From Pseudomonadota bacterium (GTDB taxonomy: Bacteria > Pseudomonadota > Gammaproteobacteria > Burkholderiales > Burkholderiaceae_C), in contig JAJZVU010000032.1 in assembly GCA_021845505.1 (NCBI GenBank), forward strand, positions 1 to 38,803: a DNA stretch of 38,803 bases, given 5' to 3'. Numbering within the stretch: position 1 is the first letter of the stretch; every line of letters starts with the position of its first letter. This document shows, piece after piece, positions 3,563 to 22,654 of the stretch. Made by a program: the position numbers and the translations under genes. The notes under the pieces are model-generated. The model made no database searches. It had not been told where the DNA came from and saw nothing but the letters and a program-made list of their open reading frames with translations.

Positions 3563-3734
3563 ATTCCGGCGCGGCATCGCAACGCGCCGGCCGCGGCGCC
3601 GGCGACCCCGCTGACCCATGTCAACGCCGGGTCGGGCGCGGCTGGGTACCCTACCCCCATCGGGCAGCGCGCCGGCACGGCCGCGTCGCACGGCCCCTTG
3701 CGTCGCACCGGCGCAGCCACCGCAACGACCCGCC

Positions 3735-4922
3735 ATGACCGATGTCATCCTGAGCCTGAACGCAGGCTCGACCAGCCTGCGCTTCACCCTGTTCGAACTC
3801 GACTCCGCGCAGGTCGCCGAGCGGCCGCTGGCCGACGGCGAGGTCGAGGGCCTGGGCGGCCAGGCGCGCCTGCGCATCGCGTCGCGCATCGGCGCCGGCG
3901 TCGACCAGGAGCTGGCCGGCGGCGCCGACCATGCCGCCGCGCTGCAGCGGGTGCTCGGCTGGATCGACGAACACGATGCGGGAATGCGGCTGCTCGGAGT
4001 CGGCCATCGCATCGTGCACGGCGGCACGCAGTTCCAGGCGCCGTGCCGGCTGAGCCCCCGGGTGGTCGACGCGCTGGAGGCGCTGACCCCGCTGGCCCCG
4101 CTGCACCAGCCGCACAACCTCGCCGCGGTACGCGCGCTGGCGCGCAGCCACCCGCGGCTGCCGCAGGTCGGCTGCTTCGACACCGCGTTCCACGCCACCA
4201 ACACCCCGCTGTCCACCCGCTACGCGCTGCCGCGCGAACTGCGCGAGCTCGGGCTGCGGCGCTACGGCTTCCACGGCCTGTCCTACGAATACATCGCGTC
4301 GATCCTGCCGCGCCACCTGGGCGAGCGGGCCGACGGCCGGGTGGTGGTCGCGCACCTGGGCGGCGGCGCCAGCCTGTGCGCGATGCGCGCTCGCCGCAGC
4401 GTGACCTCGACCATGGGCTTTTCCGCGCTCGAGGGGCTGCCGATGACCACCCGCGCAGGCCACGTCGATCCCGGGGTGCTGCTGTACCTGATGAGCGAAA
4501 GGGGCATGGACGCGGCAGCGCTGGGCGACCTGCTCTACCACCGCTCGGGGCTGCTCGGGCTGTCGGGGTTCAGCGGCGACATGCGCACCCTGCTGGCCAG
4601 TTCCGAGCCGCGGGCCGCGATGGCGGTGCAGACCTTCGTCTACGCGATCGGTCGCGAACTGGGGTCGCTGGCCGCGGCGCTGGGCGGGCTCGATGCGCTG
4701 GTTTTCACCGGGGGCATCGGCGAGCACGCTGCCGCGGTGCGCGAACAGGTATGCCGCGACGCCGCCTGGCTGGGGCTGCGGCTGGATGCCGCGGCGAACA
4801 CGGCCGGCGGGCCGCTGCTCAGCGAGCCCGGCAGCCCGGTGACCGCGCTGGCGCTGGCGACCAACGAGGAACTGATGATCGCCCGCCACACGCTGGCGGT
4901 CGCGCGCGGCGCGTCGGCGTGA
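3735..4922 (+). CDS. ackA: Acetate/propionate-family kinase
   Basis: A 395-residue member of the acetate kinase family, which interconverts acyl phosphate plus ADP and the acid plus ATP. Landmarks in order: LNAGSTSLRF (residues 8-17), GHRIVHGG, CFDTAFH with the catalytic Asp, YGFHGLSYEY, the phosphate-binding HLGGGASL loop, TTRAG with the conserved Arg, FTGGIGEH, and NEELMIA near the C-terminus with the metal-binding Glu. The usual SVDTSMGF and GTRSGD segments read SVTSTMGF and TTRAGH, so it belongs to a divergent branch that I recall often lying near phosphoketolase rather than to the E. coli type. No phosphotransacetylase or phosphoketolase is in the window. It converges with liuD, 33 bases away. 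The start at 3735 is chosen because MTDVILSLNAG matches the family N-terminus. Confidence 0.9.
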   Translation: MTDVILSLNAGSTSLRFTLFELDSAQVAERPLADGEVEGLGGQARLRIASRIGAGVDQELAGGADHAAALQRVLGWIDEHDAGMRLLGVGHRIVHGGTQFQAPCRLSPRVVDALEALTPLAPLHQPHNLAAVRALARSHPRLPQVGCFDTAFHATNTPLSTRYALPRELRELGLRRYGFHGLSYEYIASILPRHLGERADGRVVVAHLGGGASLCAMRARRSVTSTMGFSALEGLPMTTRAGHVDPGVLLYLMSERGMDAAALGDLLYHRSGLLGLSGFSGDMRTLLASSEPRAAMAVQTFVYAIGRELGSLAAALGGLDALVFTGGIGEHAAAVREQVCRDAAWLGLRLDAAANTAGGPLLSEPGSPVTALALATNEELMIARHTLAVARGASA

Positions 4923-4955
4923 CGCAGCCGCGGCGGTCGAACGCGAGGGCCCGGC

Positions 4956-6959: not shown

Positions 6960-6967
6960 GCGTCACC

Positions 6968-7774
6968 TCAGGAGTCGATGTCGGACGCGGGCACCAGCCA
7001 TGCCGGCTTGCGCTTGTCGAGGAAGGCGCGCAGGCCCTCGGCGGCCTCGGGCGTTGCGCGCAGGCGGGCGATGCGCCCGGCGCAGTCCTCGACCAGCGCG
7101 TCGTCGATCGGCCGGCCGGCGACCGCGCGGATCAATTCCGTGGCCGCCGCCTGCGCCTGCGGCCCGCCCGCCAGCAGCGACTCGACCATGCGCTCGACGC
7201 AGGCGTCGAGCTGCTCGGGCTCGGCCAGTTCGTGGACCAGGCCGATTTCGCGCGCGCGCGCCGCGTCGATGCGCTCGCCGGTCTGGAAATAGCGATAGGC
7301 CTGGCGCTCGCCGATCGCCCGCACCACGTAGGGCCCGATGGCCGACGGGATGATCCCCAGCCGCACCTCCGAGGTGGCGAACACCGCGCGGGTCGAGGCC
7401 ACGCACAGGTCGCAGGCCGACGCCAGCCCCATTCCGCCGCCCAGCGCCGCGCCGTGCACCCGCGCCAGCGTGGGCTTGCGGCAGGTCGCGATGCCGCGGA
7501 ACAGCACCGCCAGCCTTCGCGCATCGTCGAGGTTGCGCGCGGGCGGAGCCTCGCCCTGGCGCTTCATCCAGTTCAGGTCGGCCCCGGCGGAAAAACTGCG
7601 GCCCGCGCCCGCGAGCACGATGACCCGCACCGAGTCGTCGCGGTCCAGCGCGGCGAAGGCCTCGGTGAGTTCGGCGATCAGGGTTTCGTCGAAGGCGTTG
7701 TGGACTTCGGGGCGGTTCATCCACACCCATGCCGCGACGCCGCGCTGCTCGATCTGCAAGGTCTGGTGGTTCAT
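6968..7774 (-). CDS. liuC: Methylglutaconyl-CoA hydratase (crotonase family)
   Basis: 268 residues of crotonase fold from the ATG at 7774 (MNHQTLQIEQ). The open frame extends to an ATG at 7801 inside the end of liuB, but 7774 fits the family N-terminus and lies 7 bases past the liuB stop. FSAGADL (61-67) and HGAALGGGMGLASACD (107-122) form the CoA/oxyanion site. Glu136 in SEVRLGIIP matches the second crotonase catalytic Glu; the first Glu position is Gly116. Its role is hydration of 3-methylglutaconyl-CoA to HMG-CoA in leucine catabolism, inferred mainly from its place between liuB and liuD. A generic enoyl-CoA hydratase activity cannot be excluded from sequence. Confidence 0.88.
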   Translation of the reverse strand: MNHQTLQIEQRGVAAWVWMNRPEVHNAFDETLIAELTEAFAALDRDDSVRVIVLAGAGRSFSAGADLNWMKRQGEAPPARNLDDARRLAVLFRGIATCRKPTLARVHGAALGGGMGLASACDLCVASTRAVFATSEVRLGIIPSAIGPYVVRAIGERQAYRYFQTGERIDAARAREIGLVHELAEPEQLDACVERMVESLLAGGPQAQAAATELIRAVAGRPIDDALVEDCAGRIARLRATPEAAEGLRAFLDKRKPAWLVPASDIDS

Positions 7775-7781
7775 GGTCGGC

Positions 7782-9389
<1,608 letters not shown>

Positions 9390-9413
9390 CGCCTGCTCCT
9401 GCCCGCCGGCCGC

Positions 9414-10601
9414 TCAGCCGGCCTGGCCGGCGGTTTCCGCGTAGAGTTCGCGACCGATCAGCATGCGCCGGATCTCGCTGGTGCCGGCGCCGATTTCGTA
9501 CAGCTTGGCGTCGCGCCACAGCCGGCCCACCGGGTATTCGTTGATGTAGCCGTTTCCGCCCAGCGCCTGGATCGCCTCGCCGGCCATCCAGGTGGCCTTT
9601 TCCGCCGCGTACAGGATCGCACCGGCGGCGTCCTTGCGCAGGCCGCGCGAATGGCCGCCGCGGTCGCAGGCCTGGCCGACCGCGTAGACATAGGCCCGGC
9701 AGGCCTGCCAGGTGCTGTACATGTCGGCCAGCTTGCCCTGCATCAGCTGGAACTCGCCGATCCCCTGTCCGAACTGCTTGCGCTGGTGGACATAGGGCAG
9801 CACCACGTCCATGCAGGCGGCCATGATGCCCAGCGGCCCGGCGGCCAGCACCGCGCGCTCGTAGTCCAGCCCGCTCATCAGCACCCTGACCCCTTCGCCG
9901 ACCCGGCCCAGCACGTTGTCCTCGGGCACCTCGCAGTCGTCGAAGAACACCGGGTAGGTGTTGGATCCGCGCATCCCGAGCTTGTCGAGCTTGCTGCCGA
10001 AGGACAGGCCCTTGAAGCCCTTCTCCAGCAGGAACGCGGTGATGCCCCGCGGCCCGGCGTCGGGCTCGGTCTTGGCGTAGACCACCAGCACGTCGGCGTC
10101 GCCGCCATTGGTGATCCACATCTTCGAGCCGTTGAGCACATAGCGCCCGCCGCGCTTGTCGGCCCGCAGCTTCATGCCGACCACGTCGGAGCCGGCGCCC
10201 GGCTCGCTCATCGCCAGCGCCCCGACGTGCTCGCCCGACACCAGCTTCGGCAGGTACCTGCGCTTGTGCTCGGCGCTGCCGTTGCGGTGGATCTGGTTGA
10301 CGCACAGGTTGGAGTGGGCGCCGTAGGACAGCCCCACCGCGGCCGACGCGCGGGACACCTCCTCCATCGCGACCATGTGCGCCAGGTAGCCCAGGTTGCT
10401 GCCGCCGTATTCCTCGCTGACGGTCATCCCGTGCAGGCCGAGGTCGCCCAGCTTCTTCCACAGGTCGACAGGGAACACGTTGTCGCGGTCGATCGCGGCG
10501 GCGCGGGGCGCGATCTCCTTGGCGGCGAAGTGCTCCACGCTGGAGCGCAGCATGTCGATGGTTTCGCCGAAGGCGAAGGCGAGCCCGGGAAGCTGGACCA
10601 T
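9414..10601 (-). CDS. liuA: Isovaleryl-CoA dehydrogenase
   Basis: 395 residues from the ATG at 10601, which has an AGGAG ribosome-binding site; the frame stays open further upstream, but that part is not family-like. It is an FAD acyl-CoA dehydrogenase: [13 protein letters not shown] (FAD/substrate motif, about 128-140), KMWITNGG (160-167), and [32 protein letters not shown] near the C-terminus. Glu248 in [10 protein letters not shown] matches the catalytic base position special to isovaleryl-CoA dehydrogenases (Glu254 in the human enzyme), whereas most acyl-CoA dehydrogenases use a later Glu. It oxidises isovaleryl-CoA to 3-methylcrotonyl-CoA, with electrons passing to ETF. It is the first gene of the liuABCD operon. 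Confidence 0.95.
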
Positions 10602-10673
10602 GGCAATCTCCTGGAGGACAAGGCCGGGGCGCTGCGCCTCCGGTCGATGCCGCAGCTTATCGCGGAAGGTAGC

Positions 10674-10710
10674 GCATTTGGCGCCAAGCTGGTTGCATTT
10701 CGTGCCAAGC
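10674..10710. promoter_or_regulatory. Candidate AraC-type operator: two direct repeats 21 bp apart
   Basis: GCATTTGGCGCCAAGC (10674-10689) and GCATTTCGTGCCAAGC (10695-10710) agree at 14 of 16 positions and begin exactly 21 bp apart, about two helical turns. AraC-family activators typically bind such direct repeats. The pair lies in the 304-base gap between divergent liuA (start 10601) and the AraC-type gene (start 10906), about 73-109 bases before the liuA start, where an activator would sit. Apart from this pair and the TACAAT at 10761, the gap shows only a GATAAG at 10656-10661 on the minus strand that could be a liuA -10. Confidence 0.6.
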
Positions 10711-10760
10711 CATCGCGACCTCGGGCGGCCCCGCGCGCGCCCCCGCGGCGCTCGCCTTCC

Positions 10761-10766
10761 TACAAT
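10761..10766 (+). promoter_or_regulatory. Possible -10 element for the AraC-type gene
   Basis: TACAAT matches the -10 consensus at 5 of 6 positions. It lies about 50 bp past the direct repeats and 140 bases before the start at 10906. No good -35 is visible. If used, the mRNA would carry a leader of about 130 bases. Confidence 0.3.
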
Positions 10767-10905
10767 CGGGGCCTGCCGGGCTGCGGCGCGGCACCGGCAG
10801 GCTCGCGCAGCGCGCACCGGCGCGCCCGGGGGTGCCTGTTGCGCCAGCCGCCCGCGGTTCCCGCCGCAGCGCCACGACCCCGTCACCAACCCGCGCCCAC
10901 GCCGC

Positions 10906-11994
10906 ATGCCAGCCGCCGCCACCCCGATGGCCTTCGTCCGCTCGGTGCTCGCGGCCTACCGCAAGTATCGCGTCGACCCCTCGCCGGCGCTGCTCGAGGC
11001 GGGAATTCCCCGGGCCTTGCTGCAGCACCCCGAAGCCCGGGTCACCGCGGCGCAATTCGAGGCGCTGTGCCGCGTGGCGATGCAGCAACTCGACGACGAG
11101 GCGCTGGGCTGGTTCTCGCGCCGCCTGCCCTGGGGAAGCTACGGGCTGCTGTGCCGCGCCTCGCTGAGCGCCCCCAGCCTGGGAGTCGCGCTCAAGCGCT
11201 GGTGCCGCCACCACCGCCTGCTGACCGAGGACATCGATCTGCGGCTGCTGGTCGAAGGCGACGTGGCCACGCTGCAGATCGACGAACACCGCCGCCTCGG
11301 AGCGCTGCGGGAGTTCTGCCTGGTCAGTTGCCTGCGCTACGTGCACGGCTACGCCTGCTGGCTGATCGACTCCCGCATGGCGCTGCTGGAGACCCGCCTG
11401 CCGTTGCGGCGACCGCCGCACGGCGACGTGTTCTCGCTGCTGTTCCCCGGGCCGGTGGCCTTCGGTGCCGAACGGGCCTGCATGCGCTTTTCCGCCCGCT
11501 ACCTGGAGTTGCCGCCGTGCCGCGACGAGACCGCGATGCGCGCGATGCTGCAGCAGGCGCTGCCGCTGACGGTGCGCCAGTACCGGCGCGACCGCCTGCT
11601 GGCCGACCGCGCGCGCGCGCTCATCGCCGCCCACCCCGAACAGCCCCACGACGCCGCCAGCCTGGCCGACGCGCTCAACGTGTCGGTGCGCACGCTGCAC
11701 CGCCAGTTGCAGGAGGAAGGCACCTCGCTGCAGCGCATCAAGGACGCGGTGCGCCTGCGGCATGCCGCGCACAGGCTGCGTCGAGGCAACGAGCCGATCA
11801 AGAAGGTCGCGCTGGCGGTCGGCTTCGCCAGCGCGAAGACCTTCGCGCGGGCGTTTCGCGACTGGACCGGGCACAGCCCCGGCGCGTACCGCGCCGGCGC
11901 CGAGCCGGCTCAGGGCGCGGCGGGCTGGCCGCGCGCGGAGCGCGCCAGCGTGGCCACGCCCAGCAGCACGACCACCGAGCCGATGAAGCCGTAG
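10906..11994 (+). CDS. AraC-family transcriptional regulator, probable liu regulator
   Basis: 362 residues from ATG 10906; a second ATG at 10927 ([11 protein letters not shown]) is about as likely. The N-terminal part (10-200: [38 protein letters not shown]) is the arabinose-binding-like domain found in OruR-type regulators. The C-terminal part (about 235-330) has the two AraC helix-turn-helix units: [24 protein letters not shown] and [32 protein letters not shown]. Effectors of this subgroup are often amino or fatty acids and their derivatives. It is divergent from liuA with a candidate operator between them. The tail after AYR (about 30 residues) runs antisense into the MFS gene by 85 bases and looks dispensable. 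Confidence 0.85.
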
Positions 11995-13136
11995 CCCCAG
12001 GCCAGCGCGCCTCCCAGAGTGGCCACCAGCGAGAACAACGGCGGGCCGACGACGATTCCGGCATAGGTGAAGGTCAGCGTTCCGCCGGTCAGCGCGCCCG
12101 CCTGGCCCGCGGGCGACAGGCGCGCGACCTCGGCCAGGTAGACCCCGTTCCAGCCGGTGGCGGTGGCGCCGAAGGCGATCGCCAGCACCGCCATCGCGCC
12201 CAGGCCCCAGCGCGGTCCGAGCAGCGCGCAGGCCAGGGCGCTGCCCCCCATGACCAGCGCCAGCACTCCCAGCAGCCTGGCAGGGCGCACCCCATGGTCG
12301 GTGAGAAAGCCCCAGGTGATGCGCCCGACGACCCCGGCGCCCTGCCCCAGCGCCAGCAGCATGCCGGCGCGCACCAGCGACAAGCCTGCCGCCAGGTGCA
12401 GCTGGGCGACGAAGAACGCCGAAAAGCACATCTGCATCGATGCGAAGAACATCGACAGGACGGCCAGCGGGCGGATCCCCGGGTTGCCCCACACCAGCGC
12501 GATCGGGTGGCGCCGCCGCTGCGGCGGCGCGGGGGTCGCGGGAGCTTCGCGGTCGAAGCGCCCGCGCACCCGCTGCGCGGCCACCGCCGCGACCGCGCAG
12601 ACCAGCGCGACCGCCAGCAGCGCCAGCCGCCAGTTGGTCAGCTCCAGCGTGCCGGGCAGCAATGCGCCGGCGAGCACCCCGCCGATCGGCACGCCGGTCT
12701 GCTTGAGCGAGAACACCAGCCCGCGCAGCCGCGGCGGAGTGACCGCGGCCAGCAGCTGCGAGCTCGCCGGAGTGATCGGACCGTAGCCGAAGCCGATCAG
12801 CGCGGCTCCCAGCGCCATCAGCGCAGCCGCGCCGCTGGCCATCGCGGCCACGCCCAGCGCGCACAGCACCAGGCAGGCCTGGCTGACCCGCACCGCGCCG
12901 TGGCGCCGCACCTGCGCACCGCCGACCCCGGCCGCGACCATCGCTCCGCCGAACAGCAGCGCGATGTACACCCCGAGCAGCGCCAGCGGGCGCCCGGTGG
13001 CCTTGGCCACCGCGGGAGCGATCGCCGGCAGCGCCAGCACGCACATCGACACCAGCACCTGGATCACCAGCGTGACGGCCAGCGCCAATGCGGGGAAGGC
13101 TTCTGCGACGCGAGGGTGGGAAGATTCGACCGTCAT
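11910..13136 (-). CDS. MFS transporter, substrate unknown
   Basis: 408 residues from ATG 13136 (MTVESSHPRV), with about 12 hydrophobic helices, a Pro-rich basic cytoplasmic loop near residues 185-205 separating the two six-helix halves, and an MFS-like GFLTDHGVRPARL segment after helix 8. The motif SLKQTGVPIGG in helix 5 is typical of CynX/NarK-like and related organic-anion or drug permeases. It follows bioB by 86 bases on the same strand, so it may be the distal gene of the biotin/carboxylase transcript, or independent. Its 3' end overlaps the convergent AraC-type gene by 85 bases. No substrate can be inferred. Confidence 0.8.
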   Translation of the reverse strand: MTVESSHPRVAEAFPALALAVTLVIQVLVSMCVLALPAIAPAVAKATGRPLALLGVYIALLFGGAMVAAGVGGAQVRRHGAVRVSQACLVLCALGVAAMASGAAALMALGAALIGFGYGPITPASSQLLAAVTPPRLRGLVFSLKQTGVPIGGVLAGALLPGTLELTNWRLALLAVALVCAVAAVAAQRVRGRFDREAPATPAPPQRRRHPIALVWGNPGIRPLAVLSMFFASMQMCFSAFFVAQLHLAAGLSLVRAGMLLALGQGAGVVGRITWGFLTDHGVRPARLLGVLALVMGGSALACALLGPRWGLGAMAVLAIAFGATATGWNGVYLAEVARLSPAGQAGALTGGTLTFTYAGIVVGPPLFSLVATLGGALAWGYGFIGSVVVLLGVATLARSARGQPAAP

Positions 13137-13222
13137 CACTCCGATAGCAGCCGCGGGCAAGCGCCGTCACACGACAGGCGTGCCGGGACCGCGATACCCC
13201 CTAGCGTACGCCCGTCGCGCGC

Positions 13223-14230
13223 TCAGCCGCAGGCGCGCAGGCCCAGGCGTTCGAACAGTTCGCGATCGCGCTGCACCTGGGGGTTCCCGGTGGTCAGCAG
13301 GGTGTCGCCGTAGAAAATCGAATTCGCGCCGGCCGCGAAGCACAGCGCCTGCAACGCGTCGTCCATCTGCTGGCGCCCCGCCGAAAGCCGGACCATCGCC
13401 TTGGGCATGGTGATGCGCGCCACCGCGACGGTGCGCACGAACTCGAACGGATCGATGGGCCTGGCGTGCTCCAGCGGGGTTCCCTCGACCGCGACCAGGT
13501 TGTTGATCGGCACCGACTCGGGGTAGGGATCGAGGTTGGCCAGCTGCGCGACCAGGCCGGCGCGCTGGCGCCGCGACTCGCCCATGCCGACGATGCCTCC
13601 GCAGCACACGTGGATGCCGGCGTCGCGAACGTGCGCCAGCGTGTCGAGGCGGTCCTGGTAGGTGCGGGTGCTGACGATCGACCCGTAGTACTCCGGGGAG
13701 GTGTCGAGGTTGTGGTTGTAGTAGTCCAGGCCGGCGTCCTTCAGCGCCTGCGCCTGCTCGGCGCTGAGCATGCCCAGGGTCACGCAGCTCTCCATCCCCA
13801 GGTCCTTGACCGCGCCGATCATCGCGGCCACGCGCTCGAGGTCGCGGTCCTTCAGGCTGCGCCAGGCCGCTCCCATGCAAAAGCGGGTCGCGCCCTGCTC
13901 GCGGGCCGCGCGCGCCGCCTCCACCACCTCGTCGAGCGCCATCAGCTTGCCGGCGGCCAGGCCGGTGTCGTGGTGCGCCGATTGCGAGCAGTAGCCGCAA
14001 TCCTCGGCGCAGCCTCCGGTCTTGATCGACAGCAGGGTCGACAGCTGCACCTGGTTGGCATCGAAATGGGCGCGATGCACCTGCTGCGCCTGGTACAGCA
14101 GGTCGAGGAAGGGCAGTTCGTACAGCGCCTCGACCCGCTCGAGCGGCCAGCGGGTCGCGGCCTGAGCGGCCTCGGTGGCTGCGCCGCGCGGCCGCAGCGC
14201 GTCCACGGGAATCACGGATACGGTGCTCAT
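13223..14230 (-). CDS. bioB: Biotin synthase
   Basis: 335 residues. The radical-SAM cluster motif is CAEDCGYC (Cys74, Cys78, Cys81) in [17 protein letters not shown]. Other family segments present are [59 protein letters not shown] and ANSIFYGD, covering the residues for the second Fe-S cluster including the Arg of RLSAGR. It inserts sulfur into dethiobiotin to make biotin. It lies 16 bases after the carboxyltransferase at 14247 with its own GGAGAG site, so it is probably co-transcribed with the carboxylase genes, whose carrier needs biotin. No other bio gene (A, F, D) is in the window. Confidence 0.97.
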
Positions 14231-14246
14231 CGACAGCTCTCCAGGT

Positions 14247-15827
14247 TCACGGCCTCACGCCGCTCTTGTACTTCGGTCCGACATCGCTCTTCAGCCGGCC
14301 CTGCATCGCGTCGAGGAAACGGCACAGGTAGGCGCGGGTCTCGCGCGGATCGATGACGTCCTCCACTCCGAAGGCCTCGGCGGTGCGCAGCGGCGAGGCC
14401 AGCGCGCGCAGCTCGGCCTCGAGCTCGCGCTGGCGCGCGGCCGGGTCGGCGGCGCCCTGGATCTCCCGCTTGAACGCGGCGGCCACGCCCCCCTCGACCG
14501 GCAGCGAGCCCCATTCGGCCGACGGCCACGCGATCTTCAGGTTCAGCCCGTTCTTGCTGGTGGTTCCCATTCCCGCCATTCCATAGCACTTGCGGATCAC
14601 CACGGTGAGCATCGGCACCGTGGCCTGCGCCCCCACGTACACGGTGCGCATGCCCTCGCGCAGCGTGGCGGCCGCCTCGGCGTCCATGCCGACCATGAAG
14701 CCCGGCACGTCGACCAGGAACACCAGCGGCACGTGGAAAGTGTCGCACAGTTCGATGAAGTGGCTCTGCTTGCGCGCGGCCTTCACGTCCATCGCCCCGC
14801 CGGCGATCATGGGATTGTTGGCGATCACCCCGACGCTCCTGCCGTTCAGGCGCGCGAACGCGGTGATCAGCGCCTTGCCGAAACTCGGCTGCAGCTCGAA
14901 GACCGAGCCGCGGTCGACGACCAGCTCGATCAGCCTGCGCATGTTGTAGGGCTGGCGGCGGTTGCGCGGAACGATGCGCAGCAGCTCGTCCTCGCGCCGG
15001 TCCGTCGGGTCCTCGCAGCGCACGCTGGGCGGCAGTTCGTAGACATTCTGCGGCAGGTAGCCGAGGAAGCGACGGATCGACTCGAAGCACTTGTCCTCGC
15101 TGGGCGCGACATTGTCCACCGTGCCCGCGACGTCGACCGCCATATGCGCGCCGCCCAGCTGCTCCTTGGTCACCACCTGGCCCAGCGAACGCTCGACCAC
15201 CGGCGGGCCGGCGGCGAAGATCTGGCTGGAATCCTTGACCATGATCGACCAGTGGGAGAGGATCGCCCGGCCCGCCGGCCCACCGGCGGCGGTGCCCATC
15301 ACGGCGCTGACCACCGGCACGACCCCCAGCAGCTCGACCGAGCGCTCGAAGCCGTCGACTCCCGGGAACACCGTGTGGCCGCGCCTGCGGGCCGAGGTCA
15401 CGGTGCCGCCTGCGCCATCGATCAGGTTGATCAGCGGGATGCGGTATTCGTAGGCCAGATCCTCGACAAAGCCGCCCTGCCCGCCCTTGCGTCGATCGCC
15501 CCCCCAGCTGGTTCCTCCGCGCACCGTGAAGTCCTCGCCGCCGACGGCCACCGGCCGCCCGTCGATCTGCCCCAGGCCGCAGACATAGGGCGCCGGGGTC
15601 ACCCCCTGCAGTCGCCCGTCGACATAGCTGCCGTGCCCGGCCAGCGCGCCGACCTCGCGGAAGGAACCCGCGTCGAGCAGGCGATCGACCCGCTCGCGGA
15701 CGGTCAGGCGCCCCTGGGCGTGGTGCTTGTCCACCGCCGCGACGCCTCCCAGCTCGGCTGCCCAACGTCGGCGTTGCTCGATCTCGTCGACCTCGGCCTG
15801 CCAGTTCTCCCCGCTCGTGCCACTCAT
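14247..15827 (-). CDS. Acyl-CoA carboxylase carboxyltransferase (second CT)
   Basis: 526 residues of the PCCB/MCCB carboxyltransferase fold with both crotonase-like halves: [56 protein letters not shown] (oxyanion loop), then [44 protein letters not shown] and [16 protein letters not shown]. The acyl-selectivity position (Asp in propionyl-CoA enzymes, GGAYDVM) falls in GMAGMGT, so a Met or neighbour occupies it. The R-x-R-R-G-H segment and the missing canonical YSPA-type motif set it apart from PCC and MCC. It presumably shares the biotin carboxylase and carrier encoded upstream. It starts 153 bases after the ACS transporter with a strong GGAGAGGA site. The substrate is unknown. Confidence 0.88.
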
Positions 15828-15980
15828 GCTGTGCTGTCCTCTCCAGTTCGGTTGCTTCGATGACTCCCCGCACCCCGGCCGCCTCGCGGGCCCGAGCGTG
15901 GCGCCGGGCCGCCGGGCCGGGCCGCGCGAGCGCGCGACCCGCGCGACCTCAAGCCGGTTGCTCCGCGCCGCCGAGCCGAT

Positions 15981-17225
15981 TCACAGCTTGCGCGGATCGC
16001 AGGCGACGATCAGCAGCGCGCCGAATACGATCGGCAGGATCGACACCAGCGCAAAGGCGTAATAGAACGACCCGGTGGCGCTGACGATGAAGCCGGTGAA
16101 CAGCGGCGCGACGATCCCGGCCAGCGAGCCGATCCCGGTCACCAGGCTCGACGCGGCCCCACCGTTGCTCGGGCAGGCGTCGACCGGAATGGCGAAGAAG
16201 ATCGGGTTGGCGGTGAAATTGATCAGGCTGGCCACGCTGATCAACAGCACGATCTCCAGGGTGGTCGTCGCCACCAGGGTCATGCCGATGATCAGGCCGG
16301 TCACCAGCAGGCAGGTGCCCGCCAGGTAGGTGCGCCCCCAGCGCAGGCTGTCGGTCTTGCGGTAGACCCAGTCGGAGATCGGCCCCGAGGCCAGCGCACC
16401 GATGGTCATGAAGATCCACGGCAGCGAGCCGAAGTAGGCGATGTGGGAAAACTCCATGTGCCGTTCCTTCACCAGGTAGGTCGGAAGGAACGCCAGCAGG
16501 AAATACAGCACGTACGCGGACGAGAAGAACGCCAGCCCGGTCAGCCACAGCGTGCGGCTGCCGACGATGCGGCTCCAGTGCACCGCCTCGCCCGTCTGCG
16601 CGCGCTCGAGCGCCGGCGCGCCCTGCTCCGGCCTGTCGGTGATGTAGATCTTGCAGAGAACCGCCCACGCGATGCCGACGACACCCAGCAGGATGAACGG
16701 CGCCTGCCAGCCGTACGCCGAGGTCAGCCAGACAGCGACCGGGATGATGAGCAGCGAGCCCAGCGGGATGCCCGCGCCCATCAGCGTGGCGGCCCGGCCG
16801 TGCTCCTTGGCGGGAAACCAGTTGCCGATGAGCTGCGAGCCGCTGGGGAACGCCACCCCCTCGCTGGCTCCGAACAGGATGCGCAGCCCGAGCAGGCTGG
16901 CGAATCCGTTGGCCACCGCCACCAGCATCACGGTGATCGACCACAGCACCGACGACGCGATGAAGGTCCGCTTGGGGCCGAGCAGCGACACGATGCCGCC
17001 GCCGAGGAACACCAGCAGCACGTAGCCCCAGCCGAAGCCCGAGGCGATGATCCCGAACTCCTTGATGCTCAGGTGGAAGGTCTTGATCAGTACCGGCGCG
17101 ACGACACCCAGCACGCCGCGGTCCGCGTAGTTGATGATGGTGATCACGAACAACAGCCATGCCACGGTCCAGCGATTGCGCTGGGCCGGCTGCGCCGCGT
17201 AGCCGGTGTTTGGAGTTACTGCCAT
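15981..17225 (-). CDS. ACS-family (anion:cation symporter) MFS transporter
   Basis: 414 residues from ATG 17225, preceded by GGGAGAC; an upstream in-frame ATG at 17273 lacks such a site. It has the anion:cation symporter signature after the first helix (INYADRGVLGVVAP), FGWGYVLLVFLGG, the RILFGASEGVAFPSG segment of helix 4, and about 12 helices. Family members import sugar acids (galactonate, glucarate), phthalates, hydroxyphenylacetate or other carboxylates with protons. Its place inside the CoA-transferase/carboxylase cluster suggests it imports the acid that the transferase activates. It is 99 bases downstream of the biotin carrier gene. Confidence 0.88.
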   Translation of the reverse strand: MAVTPNTGYAAQPAQRNRWTVAWLLFVITIINYADRGVLGVVAPVLIKTFHLSIKEFGIIASGFGWGYVLLVFLGGGIVSLLGPKRTFIASSVLWSITVMLVAVANGFASLLGLRILFGASEGVAFPSGSQLIGNWFPAKEHGRAATLMGAGIPLGSLLIIPVAVWLTSAYGWQAPFILLGVVGIAWAVLCKIYITDRPEQGAPALERAQTGEAVHWSRIVGSRTLWLTGLAFFSSAYVLYFLLAFLPTYLVKERHMEFSHIAYFGSLPWIFMTIGALASGPISDWVYRKTDSLRWGRTYLAGTCLLVTGLIIGMTLVATTTLEIVLLISVASLINFTANPIFFAIPVDACPSNGGAASSLVTGIGSLAGIVAPLFTGFIVSATGSFYYAFALVSILPIVFGALLIVACDPRKL

Positions 17226-17324
17226 GGTTTGTCTCCCGAAGCTTTTGTGTATGTGCCTTTGGTTGGTGTTCATCCACGAACAGACTTGTGCCAGGCTGCA
17301 GCGCCTTGCCGATCCTCCCTTCCG

Positions 17325-17546
17325 CTAGTCCTCGATGACCAGCAGGACGTCGCCTTCCTTCACGGCCGCCCCCTCGGCGACGCGCACCTCCACGATGCTG
17401 CCGCCGTCCTCGGCGATCACCGGGATCTCCATCTTCATCGACTCGAGGATCATCAGGGTCTCCCCCTCCTCCGCGCCGTCCCCGACGGCCTTGAGGATCT
17501 TCCACACCGAGCCGGTGACCTCGGACTTCAGTTCATAGCGTGCCAT
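17325..17546 (-). CDS. Stand-alone biotin carboxyl carrier protein (73 aa)
   Basis: A complete minimal biotinyl domain of 73 residues. The biotinylation motif ESMKMEIP places the modified Lys at residue 38, with VTGSVWKILKAVGDGAEEGE before it and VAEGAAVKEGDVLLVIE after, forming the barrel-sandwich hybrid. There is no N-terminal Pro/Ala-rich arm as in AccB of the essential acetyl-CoA carboxylase. It should carry carboxybiotin between the biotin carboxylase at 17571 (24 bases upstream) and the carboxyltransferases at 18924 and/or 14247. A lipoyl role is unlikely, since the motif has Met on both sides of Lys. Confidence 0.93.
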   Translation of the reverse strand: MARYELKSEVTGSVWKILKAVGDGAEEGETLMILESMKMEIPVIAEDGGSIVEVRVAEGAAVKEGDVLLVIED

Positions 17547-17570
17547 TGGATTGCCTTGCTCCCAGGGAAT

Positions 17571-18911
17571 TCATCGAATCAATTCGGACAACAGTCCCGT
17601 GTGCACGTCGCCGTCGCGGAACGCGCTCGACGACAGCACCTGGTCCAGAGCGGCCAGGTTGGTCTTCACGCCCGCGATGTCGAACTCGCGCAACGCATCG
17701 CGCAGCAGGTCGATCGCCGCCTCGCGCGTCGGCGCGTGGGCGATCACCTTGGCCAGCATCGGGTCGTAGTGCGTGGTCACTTCGCGCCCTTGCGCATAGC
17801 CGGTCTCGATGCGGATTCCCGGCCTGCGCGGCGGCCTGAAGGTGCTCAGCGTGCCGGGCGAAGGCAGGAAGCGGCGCGAGTCCTCGGCATACACCCGGGC
17901 CTCGATCGCGTGGCCGTCGACCCGCACCTCGGGCGGCAGGATGTCGCCCAGCGCCTGCCCGGCCGCCGAGCGGATCTGCGCGGCCACCAGGTCGAGCCCG
18001 GTGACCTCCTCGGTCACGCCGTGTTCCACCTGCAGCCGGGTATTCGTTTCCAGGAAGCTGAAGCTGCCGTCGGCCCCCATGAGCATTTCGACGGTGCCGA
18101 TGTTGTCGTAGCCCATGCCGGCGAAGGTCGCGGCGATCTGCTCGGCCAGCGCATGCACCCGCTGGCGGTCGACGCGCGGCGCGCAGGCCTCCTCGAGCAC
18201 CTTCTGGTGCCTGCGCTGCACCGAGCAGTCGCGGTCGAACAGATGGCGCACCTTGCCGTGTCGGTCGCCCAGCAACTGGAACTCGACGTGGCGCGGCCGC
18301 TCCAGGTATTTCTCGAGATAGACGTCGCCGTTGGCGAAGCCGCGCAGCGCCATCGAGCGCGCGCGCTCGACGCTGGCCTGCAGCTGCTCCTCGTCGCGCG
18401 CCACCAGCATGCCGATGCCGCCGCCGCCGCCGGCCGGCTTGACCAGCAGCGGAAAGCCGATGCTGCGGGCGTGTTCCCGCATCTGCAGCGGATCGTCGCC
18501 GAGCACCGGCGAGCCCTGCCCGACCGGCAGGCCGTGGCGGGCGGCGAGCTCGCGCGCGCGGGTCTTGTGGCCCATCGCCTCCAGCCACCGGGCCGAAGGG
18601 CCGATGAATCGCGCCCCGGCCTGCTCCACCCGAGTCGCGAATTCGGGGTTCTCGGAAAGGAATCCGTAGCCCGGATGCACGCCGTCGGCGCCCGAGCGGC
18701 GCACGACGTCGAGCAGCGCCTGCTGGTTGAGGTAGCTCTCGCGCGCCGGCGCAGCGCCGATGCAGTAGGTCTCGCCGGCCTCGGCGAGGTAGGGCGCGCC
18801 GGCGTCGGCCTCCGAATAGACGGCCACCGACGCGATGCCCATGCGCGTCAGGGTGCGCAGCACCCGGGCGGCGACGGCGCCGCGATTGGCCACCAGGACT
18901 TTGTGGAACAT
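17571..18911 (-). CDS. Biotin carboxylase subunit (no biotinyl domain)
   Basis: 446 residues, the length of a bare biotin carboxylase: no BT or biotinyl domain, unlike LiuD in this window. Visible sites: KVLVANRGAVAARV at the N-terminus, Lys158 before the ATP-lid loop PAGGGGGIGM, RDCSVQRRHQK (227-237), Glu275, Glu288, Asn290 and Arg292 in FLETNTRLQVEH, and Arg339 in HAIEARVYAED. The usual Pro after QVEH is Gly. It carboxylates the 73-residue carrier at ATP cost. It starts 12 bases after the upstream CT stop and has no obvious ribosome-binding site, so it is probably translationally coupled to that gene. Confidence 0.93.
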   Translation of the reverse strand: MFHKVLVANRGAVAARVLRTLTRMGIASVAVYSEADAGAPYLAEAGETYCIGAAPARESYLNQQALLDVVRRSGADGVHPGYGFLSENPEFATRVEQAGARFIGPSARWLEAMGHKTRARELAARHGLPVGQGSPVLGDDPLQMREHARSIGFPLLVKPAGGGGGIGMLVARDEEQLQASVERARSMALRGFANGDVYLEKYLERPRHVEFQLLGDRHGKVRHLFDRDCSVQRRHQKVLEEACAPRVDRQRVHALAEQIAATFAGMGYDNIGTVEMLMGADGSFSFLETNTRLQVEHGVTEEVTGLDLVAAQIRSAAGQALGDILPPEVRVDGHAIEARVYAEDSRRFLPSPGTLSTFRPPRRPGIRIETGYAQGREVTTHYDPMLAKVIAHAPTREAAIDLLRDALREFDIAGVKTNLAALDQVLSSSAFRDGDVHTGLLSELIR

Positions 18912-18923
18912 GGATCGATCGTT

Positions 18924-20495
18924 TCAGTAGGTGGCAGGCCAGGTGCGCATCAGGTGCTGGCCGACCCCGTTGCTCAGCCGCATCCGATGCACCTCGAGCA
19001 TGCGGATCAGGTAGCTGCGGGTGTGCTGCGGCAGGATCACGCTCTGCACCGCGTACAGCGAGGCGATGTCGTAGACGCTGTTGTCGAGCTCCATCTGCTG
19101 CAGCGCCGCGTCGAAGCCCGGATCCCCCGGGGTCAGGCCGTGCACGATCTCCACCGCGTACTGCGGGGTCATGAAGCTGACCTCGGCGGTCGGCCAGGCG
19201 GCGACCTCGTCGGTGTTGCGCCCGCCGCCCATGTTCAGGTAGGCCTGGCCGTAGCTCTTGCGCAGGATGACCGACAGCTTGGGCACGGTCACCAGCGCCA
19301 GCGCGTTCATGAAGTTCATGATGCGCCCGGGCGCACGCTTGCGCTCGGCGTCCAGCCCGATGACAAAGCCCGGGGTATCGACGAACATCACCAGCGGGAT
19401 GTTGAAGGAATCGCACATCACGATGAAGCCGGTGATCTTCTCGCAGGCCTCGGTGTCCAGCGCGCCGCCCTTGTACAGCGGGTTGTTGGCGATCACCCCC
19501 ACCGTGCGGCCGTCGAGCCGGGCGAGCGCGGTCATCGCCACCTTGCCGAAGCGCGGCTTGAGCTCGAGCACGCTGTCGCGGTCGAAAATGGTGCGCACCA
19601 CCTTGCGCACGTCGTAGACCTGGGTGCGGTTGGCCGGCAGCAGGTGGACGATGTCGTCCATGCCCTCGCCCGATCCGGCGGGCACCGAGTGCACCGGCGG
19701 CGCCTCGTTGTGGTGGCTGGGCATGTAGCTCAGGAAGCGCCGGATCGCCTGCAGCGCCTCGTCGTCGGTGTCCACCACGGCGTCGGCGAAACCCGTGACC
19801 TCGGCGTGCAGACGCCAGCCGCCGAGTTCCTCGGGATCGATCTGCTCCTTGACCGCCAGCGACACCAGCCGCGGGCTCGACACGGCCATGATCGCGCCCT
19901 TGCGCATGACCATGAAGTCGGCCAGCACGCTGTACCAGCTCGACGAGCCGTAGCAGTATCCCAGCACGGCCGCCGCCCACGGGGTCTCGCGCATGCGCTG
20001 GTACTGCGTCGGGTCGTTGCCCAGCAGGCTGCCCATGCCCCGCGAGCCCATGGTGTCGGGCATGCGCGCCCCCGACGACTCGCCCAGGAACACCATCGGC
20101 AGCCCGCGTTGCGTGGCCACCCGCTTCATCTGCGCGATCTTCCTGCCGTTGGTCGCGCTGCTCGAGGCGCCCATGACCGTGAAGTCGTTGGACACGACTG
20201 CGATCTCGCGGCCGTCCAGCCGCGCATAGCCGACGACCTTGCCGTCGCCCGGGGTGCGCTGCCGGTCCTGCGCGACCACCGAGGTGGCGAACAGCCCGGA
20301 TTCGATGAAGCTGCCGGCGTCGACCAGGCGGTCGATGCGCTCGCGGGCATTGAGCAGGCCGCGCTCGCGACGCGCCTGCAGCTTGGCCTCGCCGCCCATC
20401 GCCAGCGCCTGCTCGCGCCTGACTCGGTACTCCTCGTGCAGACGCGCATAGGCGTCGGCGTTTTCCATGCTCTTGTGGTCGGGTCCGCTTCCCAC
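18924..20495 (-). CDS. Acyl-CoA carboxylase carboxyltransferase (first CT)
   Basis: 523 residues from a GTG start at 20495, chosen because AAGGAG lies 9 bases upstream; an internal ATG at 20468 has no such site. Two crotonase-like halves are intact: LNARERIDRLVDAGSF, VVSNDFTVMGASSSATNGRK, GESSGARMPD, then GVIANNPLYKGGALDTEACEK, MFVDTPGFVIGLDAE and RKSYGQAYLNMGGG. The selectivity position (Asp in PCC, Ile in ACC of Streptomyces) falls in GQAYLNM as Leu, so it is hydrophobic as in acetyl-CoA-type enzymes. It probably transfers carboxyl from the 73-residue carrier to a CoA ester made by the adjacent CoA-transferase. Substrate identity is open. Confidence 0.9.
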   Translation of the reverse strand: MGSGPDHKSMENADAYARLHEEYRVRREQALAMGGEAKLQARRERGLLNARERIDRLVDAGSFIESGLFATSVVAQDRQRTPGDGKVVGYARLDGREIAVVSNDFTVMGASSSATNGRKIAQMKRVATQRGLPMVFLGESSGARMPDTMGSRGMGSLLGNDPTQYQRMRETPWAAAVLGYCYGSSSWYSVLADFMVMRKGAIMAVSSPRLVSLAVKEQIDPEELGGWRLHAEVTGFADAVVDTDDEALQAIRRFLSYMPSHHNEAPPVHSVPAGSGEGMDDIVHLLPANRTQVYDVRKVVRTIFDRDSVLELKPRFGKVAMTALARLDGRTVGVIANNPLYKGGALDTEACEKITGFIVMCDSFNIPLVMFVDTPGFVIGLDAERKRAPGRIMNFMNALALVTVPKLSVILRKSYGQAYLNMGGGRNTDEVAAWPTAEVSFMTPQYAVEIVHGLTPGDPGFDAALQQMELDNSVYDIASLYAVQSVILPQHTRSYLIRMLEVHRMRLSNGVGQHLMRTWPATY

Positions 20496-20546
20496 TTGGT
20501 TTCGCTCCTTGGCCGATGACGGGTGACGCTGCCGCGGGCCGCTCGC

Positions 20547-21812
20547 TCAGGCCTGCTCGGCCAGCGCGGGGTGTTGGCCGCCGACGCTCGAGGCCTGGTA
20601 GATCACCCCGGCCTCGCGCAAGCGCAGCAATTCCTCGCGGGACAGGTCGGTCAGGCTGCCGAGCACCCGCTCGGTATCGCGTCCGACCGCGCCGCCGGCC
20701 ACGCGCAGCGCACCCGGGGTGGACGACAGCCGCGGCACCGGGCTGGCCATCGTGAAGGCCTCGCCGGTTTCGTCGCGCACGTCGACCAGCATCTCGCGCG
20801 CGCGGAAATGCGGGTCGGCGAAAATGTCCTGCATGGTGTAGATGCGGGTGGCCGGCACCTCGGCCTGCGCCAGCATGCGCTCGAGTTCGCCCAGGTCGTG
20901 CTGCGAGGTCCACTGCGCGACTTCGGCGTCCAGCGCGTCGTCGTGGGTGGAACGCGCGAGCGCCGAGGCGAAGCGGCTGTCCTCGACCAGTTCGGGACGC
21001 CGCATCGCCACGGCCAGGCGCTTGAACACCGCGTCGCCCATCGCGGTGATGTGGATGAAGTTGTGGTCCCGCGTCGGGTACAGGTTGTTGGGCGTGCTGT
21101 CTGGCAGCCGCGAGCCCGAGCGGTTGGCCACGTGGCCCAGCTTCTGGAAGGCCGAGATGTGGGGCTCCATGAAACTGAAGGCCGACTCGTACAGCGCCGC
21201 GTCGACGCACTGGCCCCTGCCGGTGATCTGCCGCGACAGCAGCGCCATGGTCGCGCCGAAGGCCCCGTACAGCCCGGTGCAGTAATCGGTCAGCGACACC
21301 GCGGTGCGAGTCGGAGGACGGTCGGGGTCGCCGGTGAGATGGCGCAGGCCGCTGACCGCCTCGCCGATCACCCCGTAGCCCGGGCGGCCCTTGTACGGGC
21401 CTGTCTGGCCGAAGCCGCTGATGCGGACCATCACGAGCCCGGGATGGATCCTGGCCAGGTCTTCGTAGCCCAGGCCCCATTTCTCGAGGCCGCCGGGGCG
21501 GAAGTTCTCGACCACCACATCGCAGCGCTGGACCAGCCGGCGCACCAGCGCCTGTCCCTCGGGCACGCGCAGGTTGACCGAAATCAGCGACTTGTTGCGC
21601 AGGATGCTGGCCGCGTACAGCGACTTGCCCTGGTGGCGCTTGCCCATGGTTCGCACCGGGTCGCCCTCGGGCGGCTCGATCTTGATGACTTCGGCGCCGA
21701 AGTCGGCGAGCAGCCTGCCGCAGAACGGGCCTGCCACCGTCGACCCCATCTCCAGCACCCGGAAGCCGCTCAGCGGCCCGTTGCGCTCCGTCTTGACCTC
21801 TTGCTCGTGCAT
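20547..21812 (-). CDS. CaiB/BaiF (class III) CoA-transferase
   Basis: 421 residues from ATG 21812 with CAGGAG upstream (the frame is open to 21845, but that lacks a site). Family landmarks: LSGFRVLEMGSTVAGPFCGRLLADFGAEVIKIE at the start, RNKSLISVNL, VENFRPGGLEKWGLGYE, FGQTGPY, and catalytic Asp176 in SLTDYCTG, the residue that forms the acyl-anhydride intermediate in this class. The C-terminal MQDIFADPHFRAREM segment is also typical. It moves CoA between an acyl-CoA (often succinyl-CoA) and a free acid. It sits between the GntR gene (29 bases) and the first CT (51 bases), so it probably activates the substrate that the carboxylase acts on. Confidence 0.93.
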   Translation of the reverse strand: MHEQEVKTERNGPLSGFRVLEMGSTVAGPFCGRLLADFGAEVIKIEPPEGDPVRTMGKRHQGKSLYAASILRNKSLISVNLRVPEGQALVRRLVQRCDVVVENFRPGGLEKWGLGYEDLARIHPGLVMVRISGFGQTGPYKGRPGYGVIGEAVSGLRHLTGDPDRPPTRTAVSLTDYCTGLYGAFGATMALLSRQITGRGQCVDAALYESAFSFMEPHISAFQKLGHVANRSGSRLPDSTPNNLYPTRDHNFIHITAMGDAVFKRLAVAMRRPELVEDSRFASALARSTHDDALDAEVAQWTSQHDLGELERMLAQAEVPATRIYTMQDIFADPHFRAREMLVDVRDETGEAFTMASPVPRLSSTPGALRVAGGAVGRDTERVLGSLTDLSREELLRLREAGVIYQASSVGGQHPALAEQA

Positions 21813-21841
21813 CGTCCTCGCTCCTGAACCGCGCCGCGCCG

Positions 21842-22546
21842 TCACAGGATGAACTTGCGATAGCGCAGGATGAATTCGCGCGCGCTGCGCATGTTCTCCC
21901 GCCGGCAGCGTTCGGCCTCGTCGGCGTCGCCGCGGCGCATCGCCGCCAGCACCGCGCGATGTTCCTTCAGGCCCTGTTCGGCGCGCCCTGGCAGGATGAT
22001 CACCCGCCGGATGACCGACTGGGTCTTTTCATAGATGCTGTCGATCATCGCGGTGAGGATCGGGTTGGCCGCGGCCTCGATGACCCGCCTGCGGAAGCGG
22101 GCATAGCCCTCCAGGAAGGCCTCGTAGTCGCCGCGAGCCACGTAGTCGTGCATCGCTCCATCGAACAGGTCGAGCAGGTCCTGCCAGCTCTCGGCGGCGG
22201 TGTTCTGGGTCGCCAGGCGCACCGTCAAGCCCTCGAGCACCTCGCGCACCTGGTAGAGCTCGATGACCTGGTCGACCTCCAGCTTGACCACGATCGCGCC
22301 GCGGTTCGGGATGCGCTCGACCAGGCCGCGCTCCTGCAGCGCCATCAGCGCTTCGCGCACCTTGGCGCGCGGCGCCCCGAACTCGTCGGCCAGCACCTGC
22401 TCGCGCAGCCGGCTGCCCGGAGGCAGGTCGTGGCTGACGATGCGGTCGCGCAGCAGCGCGAGCACGTCGGGTGCCCGCGGCGCCTTGCCCGGCGCCGGCT
22501 GCTTGGGGTCGGAGGCGGGCCTGGCCGCCTGCTGGTTCCTGGCCAT
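21842..22546 (-). CDS. GntR-family (FadR/FCD) transcriptional regulator
   Basis: 234 residues from ATG 22546 (MARNQQAARP). A winged helix-turn-helix (about 25-90: DRIVSHDLPPGSRLREQVLADEFGAPRAKVREAL, GLVERIPNRGAIV) is followed by an all-helical FCD ligand domain (about 95-225). In FCD proteins a metal is usually held by one Asp and three His. Here the first His region reads YARFRRRVIEA and the last ENMRSARE, so two of the three His seem missing, while EHRAVLAAM keeps one. It is the first gene of the carboxylase cluster and probably represses it and itself. The start lacks a clear ribosome-binding site, consistent with the short leader predicted from the promoter at 22575-22603. Confidence 0.9.
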   Translation of the reverse strand: MARNQQAARPASDPKQPAPGKAPRAPDVLALLRDRIVSHDLPPGSRLREQVLADEFGAPRAKVREALMALQERGLVERIPNRGAIVVKLEVDQVIELYQVREVLEGLTVRLATQNTAAESWQDLLDLFDGAMHDYVARGDYEAFLEGYARFRRRVIEAAANPILTAMIDSIYEKTQSVIRRVIILPGRAEQGLKEHRAVLAAMRRGDADEAERCRRENMRSAREFILRYRKFIL

Positions 22547-22574: not shown

Positions 22575-22603
22575 AGGCTAGGACCACGCCGTTTTTTTGT
22601 CAA
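22575..22603 (-). promoter_or_regulatory. Sigma-70 promoter for the GntR/carboxylase cluster
   Basis: On the minus strand TTGACA (22603-22598, a perfect -35) is followed by a 17-base spacer starting with six A, then TAGCCT (22580-22575, 3 of 6 to consensus). Transcription would start near 22568, about 20 bases before the ATG at 22546. Such an AT-rich block is rare in this window. The -35 overlaps a GntR-like palindrome, so repressor binding would block polymerase. Confidence 0.65.
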
Positions 22604-22654
22604 CAGATTCGCCAACAATTTAGCTAACAACCAGCGGCGATTCTGTAGACAAAA
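22597..22654. promoter_or_regulatory. Candidate GntR operator region with 12-bp-period repeats
   Basis: Two sites fit the GntR pattern TGT-N2-ACA: TTGTCAACAG (22597-22606) and CTGTAGACAA (22643-22652); their extended 12-base forms (22595-22606 and 22643-22654) are inverted copies with one mismatch. Between them an AACA core repeats at exactly 12-bp spacing (22602, 22614, 22626), and TTAGCTAA (22620-22627) is a perfect palindrome. The first box covers the -35 of the promoter. The rest of the 22547-22754 gap shows no gene. Confidence 0.55.

Follow-up and report, generated by a model that had tools for sequence, protein, structure and literature searches.

A recurring, apparently undescribed gene set joining a predicted class III CoA-transferase to two biotin-dependent carboxyltransferases in a Burkholderiaceae_C genome

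We analyzed a stretch of 38,803 nucleotides, here called the window, which is the entire contig C16 (JAJZVU010000032.1) of a Pseudomonadota genome assigned to Burkholderiaceae_C (GCA_021845505.1; 3.70 Mb in 84 contigs, 99.5% complete). The window contains an operon of eight genes for a GntR-family regulator, a predicted CaiB-type CoA-transferase, two carboxyltransferases (CT1 and CT2), a biotin carboxylase (BC), a biotin carboxyl carrier protein (BCCP), a major facilitator superfamily (MFS) transporter, and a biotin synthase (BioB). A preliminary description of this DNA had placed these families in a given order on one strand, and profile matches confirm both the order and the families, all on the minus strand:

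21842..22546, minus strand: GntR-family regulator with an FCD ligand domain (Pfam FCD 84.7 bits, GntR 53.1 bits)
20547..21845, minus strand: predicted class III (CaiB/BaiF) CoA-transferase (PF02515 404.5 bits, cut-off 23.3; alternative ATG start at 21812)
18924..20495, minus strand: CT1, a PccB-like carboxyltransferase (PF01039 319.9 bits)
17571..18911, minus strand: BC (CPSase_L_D2 191.1 bits, Biotin_carb_N 135.1 bits, Biotin_carb_C 121 bits)
17325..17546, minus strand: BCCP of 73 aa with an ESMKM motif (Biotin_lipoyl PF00364 53.2 bits)
15981..17273, minus strand: MFS transporter nearest the anion:cation symporter (ACS, 2A0114) family (MFS_1 182.2 bits)
14247..15827, minus strand: CT2, a PccB-like carboxyltransferase with a divergent pocket (PF01039 362.3 bits)
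13223..14230, minus strand: BioB, the second biotin synthase of the genome (TIGR00433 417.3 bits, cut-off 225)

The gene spacing likewise agrees with the preliminary description, with gaps of 51 bases between CaiB and CT1, 12 between CT1 and BC, 24 between BC and BCCP, 153 between the transporter and CT2, and 16 between CT2 and BioB; the 99-base gap given there between BCCP and the transporter holds only with the second Met of the transporter as its start, and is 51 bases with the first. Read from its GTG, CaiB overlaps GntR by 4 bases, and from its first internal ATG it leaves a gap of 29 bases. The parts of a biotin-dependent acyl-CoA carboxylase, namely BC, BCCP, and CT, are all present in the operon by their Pfam domains. 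The transporter had been called an ACS permease, which stands in the broad sense that TIGR00893 (ACS, 2A0114) is its best NCBIfam match; the strict assignment does not, the score of 209.5 bits lying under the cut-off of 395.

Relatives were collected by scanning an alignment of 15 CT2 proteins against named genomes, which gave 546 stretches and 304 relatives. The best 80 of these 304, with CT2 identities of 67–84%, were analyzed, and partner genes were counted in the 59 of the 80 loci with at least 5.5 kb of DNA upstream of CT2. We found GntR near CT2 in 45 of these 59 loci, CaiB in 48, CT1 in 50, BCCP in 50, and BC in 26. All five lie near CT2 in 23 loci, a further 14 hold GntR, CaiB, CT1, and BCCP without BC, and the remaining 22 are partial, rearranged, or cut. 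The complete eight-gene order of the window recurs in L085, recorded as a Pandoraea metagenome-assembled genome (MAG). Because L085 repeats all eight genes in order and 23 of the 59 relatives carry the five-gene core, the gene set is not due to chance. The gene order that was to be sought in sequenced genomes is represented by a recurring core of GntR, CaiB, CT1, BCCP, and CT2, and its recurrence supports the earlier idea of one conserved unit of regulator, CoA activation, biotin-dependent acyl-CoA enzyme, and transporter. The second carboxyltransferase is not an add-on, as had been supposed, since CT1 and CT2 both belong to the core; the window-type ACS transporter, in 1 of 59 loci, and BioB, in 3 of 59, are local additions. 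Among isolates, the unit is carried by Xanthobacter tagetidis ATCC 700314 (L135), Schlegelella koreensis (L100), and a Hyphomicrobium (L145), among others, and Ottowia thiooxydans (L144) has it in rearranged form. CT1 (P0006) gave matches at an E-value of 1e-100 or better in 26 of 300 genomes of the order, paralogues counted, and in none of the eight same-family genomes of that 300-genome draw, so the gene set is patchy near home. The pairwise distances of CaiB, CT1, and CT2 correlate with r of 0.82–0.85, a value in which, with no unrelated control gene, coupling is inseparable from shared descent. The components are known, and their two-CT, CoA-transferase-linked, BC-optional arrangement is apparently undescribed: no description of it was found in the open-licence literature searched, in line with the preliminary description, which knew of no described pathway with this set.

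Transport genes were counted where 3.5 kb or more of DNA follows CT2, which is the case in 59 loci. Of these, 27 have a binding protein of the NMT1 type nearby and 16 one of the TctC type (both in 6, either in 37); the ACS-type MFS occurs in 1, and none of the three types in 21, some of which show other transport genes by eye. Typical relatives have a binding protein, an ATPase, and a permease directly after CT2. Related clusters in L058, L060, L160, and L162 (neighbor identities by Pfam for two proteins and by eye for the rest) pair the BCCP, CT, and BC genes with one for a protein of the sulfite-oxidase family; electron-transfer-flavoprotein-like genes follow in L058, L060, and L162, and L058 and L060 also contain acyl-CoA-synthetase-type and iron-alcohol-dehydrogenase-like genes. 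The other bioB of the genome that exceeds the cut-off lies at G000:C7:36686, where (L174, G000:C7:31000-42000, 2435-6631) its neighbors encode a biotin carrier, a BKACE enzyme, and a carboxyltransferase of the PYC/OadA type; both bioB genes of the genome thus adjoin biotin-enzyme genes, and bioF is separate, on C21. On the same strand of the window, 4956-13160 continues with a leucine-type set, made up of an acyl-CoA dehydrogenase, a CT, and a BC-containing subunit, together with an MFS gene, and the CaiB-CT2-BC-BCCP genes of Variovorax L102 likewise adjoin LiuB/LiuD-like genes.

Pocket and catalytic residues were tallied in aligned orthologues, 56 of CaiB, 59 of CT1, 28 of BC, 60 of BCCP, and 81 of CT2. 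Asp187 of CaiB, which we take to be the active-site Asp corresponding to D169 of FRC, is kept in 56 of 56 sequences, and the domain together with this residue indicates a class III CoA-transferase. The biotin-type Lys of BCCP is kept in 60 of 60 and the catalytic-type Lys/Glu/Arg of BC in 28 of 28. CT1 and CT2 are both PccB-like and share an identity of ~32–33%. Against the solved structures of propionyl-CoA carboxylase (PCC, 1vrg), methylcrotonyl-CoA carboxylase (MCC, 3u9r), and geranyl-CoA carboxylase (GCC, 5ikl), CT2 scored 310.6, 213.2, and 171.5 bits and CT1 scored 288, 155.6, and 144.1 bits; neither is nearest the beta subunit of MCC or GCC. The oxyanion-type pair of the N-domain is Gly-Ser in CT1 (59/59) and Gly-Gly in CT2 (81/81). 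D422 of PccB faces the acyl group and sets the acetyl/propionyl preference (PMC7835884); at the equivalent site CT1 has Leu in 47, Ile in 11, and Val in 1 of 59 sequences and CT2 has Met in 78 and Gly in 3 of 81; position 421 of CT2 is Gly in place of Tyr in 81/81. Since these near-invariant pocket residues differ, CT1 and CT2 probably serve two different acyl-CoAs. A likeness of YGMAG in CT2 to YGMCG in MCC was dropped, as alignment with the LiuB of the window puts the motifs four residues apart. The other PF01039 matches of the genome are of the LiuB and AccA/AccD types, apart from one that is interrupted by a stop; a sixth match, at G000:C21:254363-255613, has one in-frame TGA.

The palindrome TTGTNNACAA occurs in 35 copies in the 981,524 bases of 54 loci, and 18 sites lie at most 300 bases upstream of gntR, in 16 of the 54 loci, versus 0.55 expected from its density across the same loci. 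No exact TTGTNNACAA was found upstream of gntR in the window, which falls outside the 16 loci and carries a one-mismatch copy only:

22597..22606, minus strand: imperfect palindrome CTGTTGACAA, resembling an operator and differing from TTGTNNACAA at one base; another near match begins at 22644

Control by the GntR protein, as first suggested, is supported by this enrichment upstream of gntR orthologues, with the window copy inexact, and the regulator is probably autoregulatory. A promoter and terminator scan gave 0 promoters and 3 terminators versus 3.1 in shuffled sequences; no sigma-70-type promoter was found by the scan.

From the observed gene content, conservation, family membership, catalytic-type residues, and operator, we infer a direction, a type of substrate, a recycling of CoA, and a division of labor between the carboxyltransferases. 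We propose, with moderate confidence evenly balanced by doubt, that the operon is a self-contained module for acid import, CoA transfer, biotin-dependent carboxylation, and the passing of CoA to the next acid. An organic acid would be imported by the ACS-type MFS transporter in the window and by NitT/TauT ABC or TctC-type systems in relatives, and the class III CoA-transferase would form its CoA thioester. BCCP would be charged with CO2 by the operon BC, or by another BC of the cell where the operon BC is absent, and would serve both carboxyltransferases; CT2, CT1, or both would carboxylate the imported acyl-CoA. CaiB would then move CoA from the carboxylated product to the next acid, and the product would pass to central metabolism. 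Because CoA would be handed from product to next acid, it would be catalytic and the minimal operon would suffice. This hand-over is proposed on the precedent of Pseudomonas aeruginosa Ict, which transfers CoA from citramalyl-CoA to itaconate (PMC12290011).

Clues to the chemistry come from one CT2 clade of 16 loci, delimited from the printed tree. Of its loci, 12 carry an itaconyl-CoA hydratase homologue (9 loci), the aconitase AcnA (5), and/or a PrpB-like protein (6), and none of the three was found in the other 65 loci, which include the window and many short contigs. The gene order is CT1-AcnA-lyase-CT2 in L091 and L153 and CT1-AcnA-CT2-hydratase in L101, where CT1-AcnA-CT2 are joined with a 4-base overlap; the L101 AcnA, the sole AcnA scanned, scored 1213.9 bits versus an NCBIfam cut-off of 945. 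The lyase-like proteins are nearest carboxyvinyl-carboxyphosphonate mutase (4iqd) and 2-methylisocitrate lyases at ~202 bits, and those adjoining CT2 of L091, L105, L114, and L153 contain KKCGH, a motif of the isocitrate-lyase superfamily. Against the solved itaconyl-CoA hydratase 8khg, the hydratase homologues of L089 and L101 scored 270.3 and 221 bits. Such hydratases, according to PMC12290011, isomerize itaconyl-CoA and hydrate mesaconyl-C4-CoA. We tentatively suggest, as a possible but doubtful reading for this clade, that an itaconate/mesaconate/citraconate-type acid is carboxylated to an aconitate-type product entering the tricarboxylic acid (TCA) cycle. If this clue carries over to the other operons, aconityl-CoA would arise when an unsaturated C5 dicarboxylyl-CoA undergoes vinylogous carboxylation, with the rest done by the TCA cycle; since that cycle would handle an aconitate-type product, most operons would need no further enzyme. 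The terms aconityl-CoA, itaconyl-CoA carboxylase, and mesaconyl-CoA carboxylase were not found in the open-licence literature searched.

Several observations weigh against this proposal. The chemistry genes are confined to 12 loci of a clade that is not the window's; among the nine hydratase copies, that of L098 is a fragment of 84 aa, and KKCGH is missing from the lyase-like proteins of L101 and from one copy each of L089 and L153. In the same clade the operon lacks BCCP and BC, with an orthologous BC elsewhere in nine of the genomes, and the sequences of CT1 and CT2 are closest to PCC and not to MCC, which carboxylates at the gamma position. Related hydratases (at least 37% identity) occur in 19 of the 26 cluster genomes searched, mostly outside the cluster; the window's genome is one of them, with a separate group at G000:C21:29120-34817 in which three class III CoA-transferase matches surround an itaconyl-CoA-hydratase-like gene (48% to L089). 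A second hydratase homologue of Cupriavidus necator belongs, according to PMC12290011, to a different and unknown pathway, so hydratase homology does not fix the substrate. Other relatives have other neighbors, namely UxaA-type dehydratases (L135, L099), TauE (five loci), and weakly PrpD-like proteins (L118, L145), and substrates may therefore differ. The UxaA/galactarate-dehydratase-type enzymes are two-part, at 1011-2467 of L135 (between ABC genes) and 10324-11780 of L099.

A sulfonate substrate was considered and not adopted, as its clues are too scattered across loci. NMT1/SsuA-like binding proteins reached only 28.1 bits with 2x26, and in L145 57.5 bits with SsuA_fam (cut-off 163.5). The UxaA-type pairs of L135 and L099 are reminiscent of sulfolactate sulfo-lyase and scored 135.6 and 139.7 with galactarate dehydratase, below the cut-off of 730.85, and a sulfolactate-dehydrogenase-like protein scored 216.8, below 500. 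The TauE-type genes of the five loci are a further clue of this kind.

As a possible though improbable alternative, CT1 and CT2 may form one heteromeric carboxyltransferase, a mixed hexamer like mycobacterial AccD4/AccD5 that carries out ATP-driven carboxylation. The frequency of CT1 at CT2 loci fits such a partnership, as does the persistence of the pair even at 39–45% CT2 identity (L070, L071, L075, L076, L080), and D4 and D5 chains occur together in solved PDB structures (9t97 and others). However, among 12 genomes with a CT1-less locus, a CT1 orthologue (at least 58% identity) lies elsewhere in 7, and 5 genomes that have CT2 (G300, G302, G303, G304, G307) have none, the match in G307 reaching only 42%, which speaks against CT1 being necessary; the AlphaFold2 monomer model of CT2 is also poor (pLDDT, the predicted local distance difference test, 59.2).

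The variable presence of BC bears on another, unlikely explanation, a BC-independent transcarboxylase in which CT1 and CT2 share BCCP, one decarboxylating for example malonyl-CoA and the other carboxylating the imported acyl-CoA; BC, where present, would only prime or top up carboxybiotin. The split carboxylase with its own BC that had been described for the window does not hold generally, as BC is absent from 33 of the 59 related loci, so carboxylation driven by a BC encoded in the operon is not the general case either. With the window BC (P0005) as the query, 32 genomes were searched, 27 chosen for a BC-less locus and 5 as controls with BC in the locus; many of the searched relatives are draft MAGs. 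A match of 61–77% was present in all 5 controls and in 9 of the 27, and in the other 18 nothing exceeded 48% identity, that is, no BC orthologue was found. A further 19 genomes gave a match of at least 58% in 11 and none in 8, in two of which (L141, L144) a different BC adjoins CT1. Of the 49 loci with CaiB, CT1, and CT2 that were placed on a tree, 23 have BC, and its presence requires no fewer than 9 changes (mean of 16.6 and minimum of 9 in shuffles); there were thus repeated losses or gains of BC while both CTs stayed. The explanation also draws on the acyl-pocket difference between CT1 and CT2 (for the role of D422/I420, PMC7835884), and PMC3199775 limits BC to carboxylases, as opposed to decarboxylases and transcarboxylases. 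Four of the five CT1-less genomes keep a BC (G300 59%, G304 64%, G307 61%, and in G302 a BC of the L133 cluster that is not orthologous), and G303 has neither, a complementarity that is suggestive and, from five genomes, not significant. On the other side, BC lies in the cluster in the window and in 26 of the 59 related loci, CT1 and CT2 both belong to the acyl-CoA type, in contrast to a 12S plus 5S pair, and housekeeping AccC or fused BC subunits, which could charge BCCP, remain in the genomes with BC-less loci. Because of these AccC-type BCs and the many draft MAGs, a supply of BC in trans by the cell is the simpler reading of the BC-less loci. That CT1-BCCP-CT2 is an ATP-free acyl-CoA to acyl-CoA transcarboxylase acting on the CaiB-activated acid, and that it turned into an ATP-driven carboxylase in operons retaining BC, seems to us a shade more doubtful still.

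Biotin-dependent decarboxylation, in which a malonate-type acid would be activated by CaiB and decarboxylated via BCCP as in malonate decarboxylases, is quite improbable: CaiB, CT, and BCCP without BC are functionally like biotin malonate decarboxylase, but neither an acyl-carrier protein nor a membrane subunit of a decarboxylase turned up among the recurring neighbors, and BC is kept in 26 of the 59 loci. An ordinary PCC with incidental neighbors is very improbable, for although PCC/ACC (acetyl-CoA carboxylase) beta subunits are the closest solved structures to both CTs and the genome has no other PccB-like PF01039 match beyond those listed above, Asp422, conserved in propionyl-CoA enzymes according to PMC7835884, is found in 0 of 59 CT1 and 0 of 81 CT2 sequences, the mmdA-family scores (371.9 and 329) are far under the cut-off of 998.8, and CaiB and GntR travel with the set.

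If the import, activation, and carboxylation module is real, it would represent a widespread, apparently undescribed proteobacterial route by which an acid is activated by recycled CoA and carboxylated by a two-CT biotin enzyme, and would give a function to CT genes, of which single genomes in the sample searched have as many as four strong matches. A transcarboxylase working between two acyl-CoAs, if true, would add a new reaction for moving carbon, one of use in synthetic pathways that incorporate CO2. The clade with CaiB, Ich, and AcnA makes the chemistry concretely testable with C5 dicarboxylates.

Comparisons with known systems indicate both shared parts and different arrangements. Like heteromeric carboxylases of the PCC/ACC type, the operon has BC, BCCP, and PccB-like CT domains with the biotin Lys and oxyanion-type residues kept; unlike them, it has two CTs, a free 73-aa BCCP, an optional BC, and a linked class III CoA-transferase, and its CTs lack Asp at the specificity position, which sets them apart from PCC. 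The Propionibacterium transcarboxylase (12S, 5S, 1.3S) resembles the operon in having two CTs per carrier, and BC is dispensable in many relatives; however, the second CT of that enzyme is of the pyruvate type, whereas both operon CTs are of the PF01039 acyl-CoA type, the window contains a BC, and no PYC/OadA-type second CT is present in its operon. Mycobacterial AccD4/AccD5 likewise, judging from entry names, combine two different acyl-CoA CT subunits with a shared alpha subunit, but BC and BCCP are fused there, and they are not known to be linked to a CoA-transferase, transporter, or regulator. The biotin malonate decarboxylase of Malonomonas also joins acyl exchange to a CT and a biotin carrier, whereas no acyl-carrier protein or membrane decarboxylase was seen in the operon. 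The clusters for itaconate and methylsuccinate (ict, ich, ccl) differ in that biotin enzymes occur here instead of, or besides, citramalyl-CoA lyase, and no itaconyl-CoA hydratase is among the eight genes of the window; they share the CoA-transferase and, in one clade, the hydratase homologue, and itaconate degradation as described in PMC12290011 passes CoA from product to substrate in the manner proposed here.

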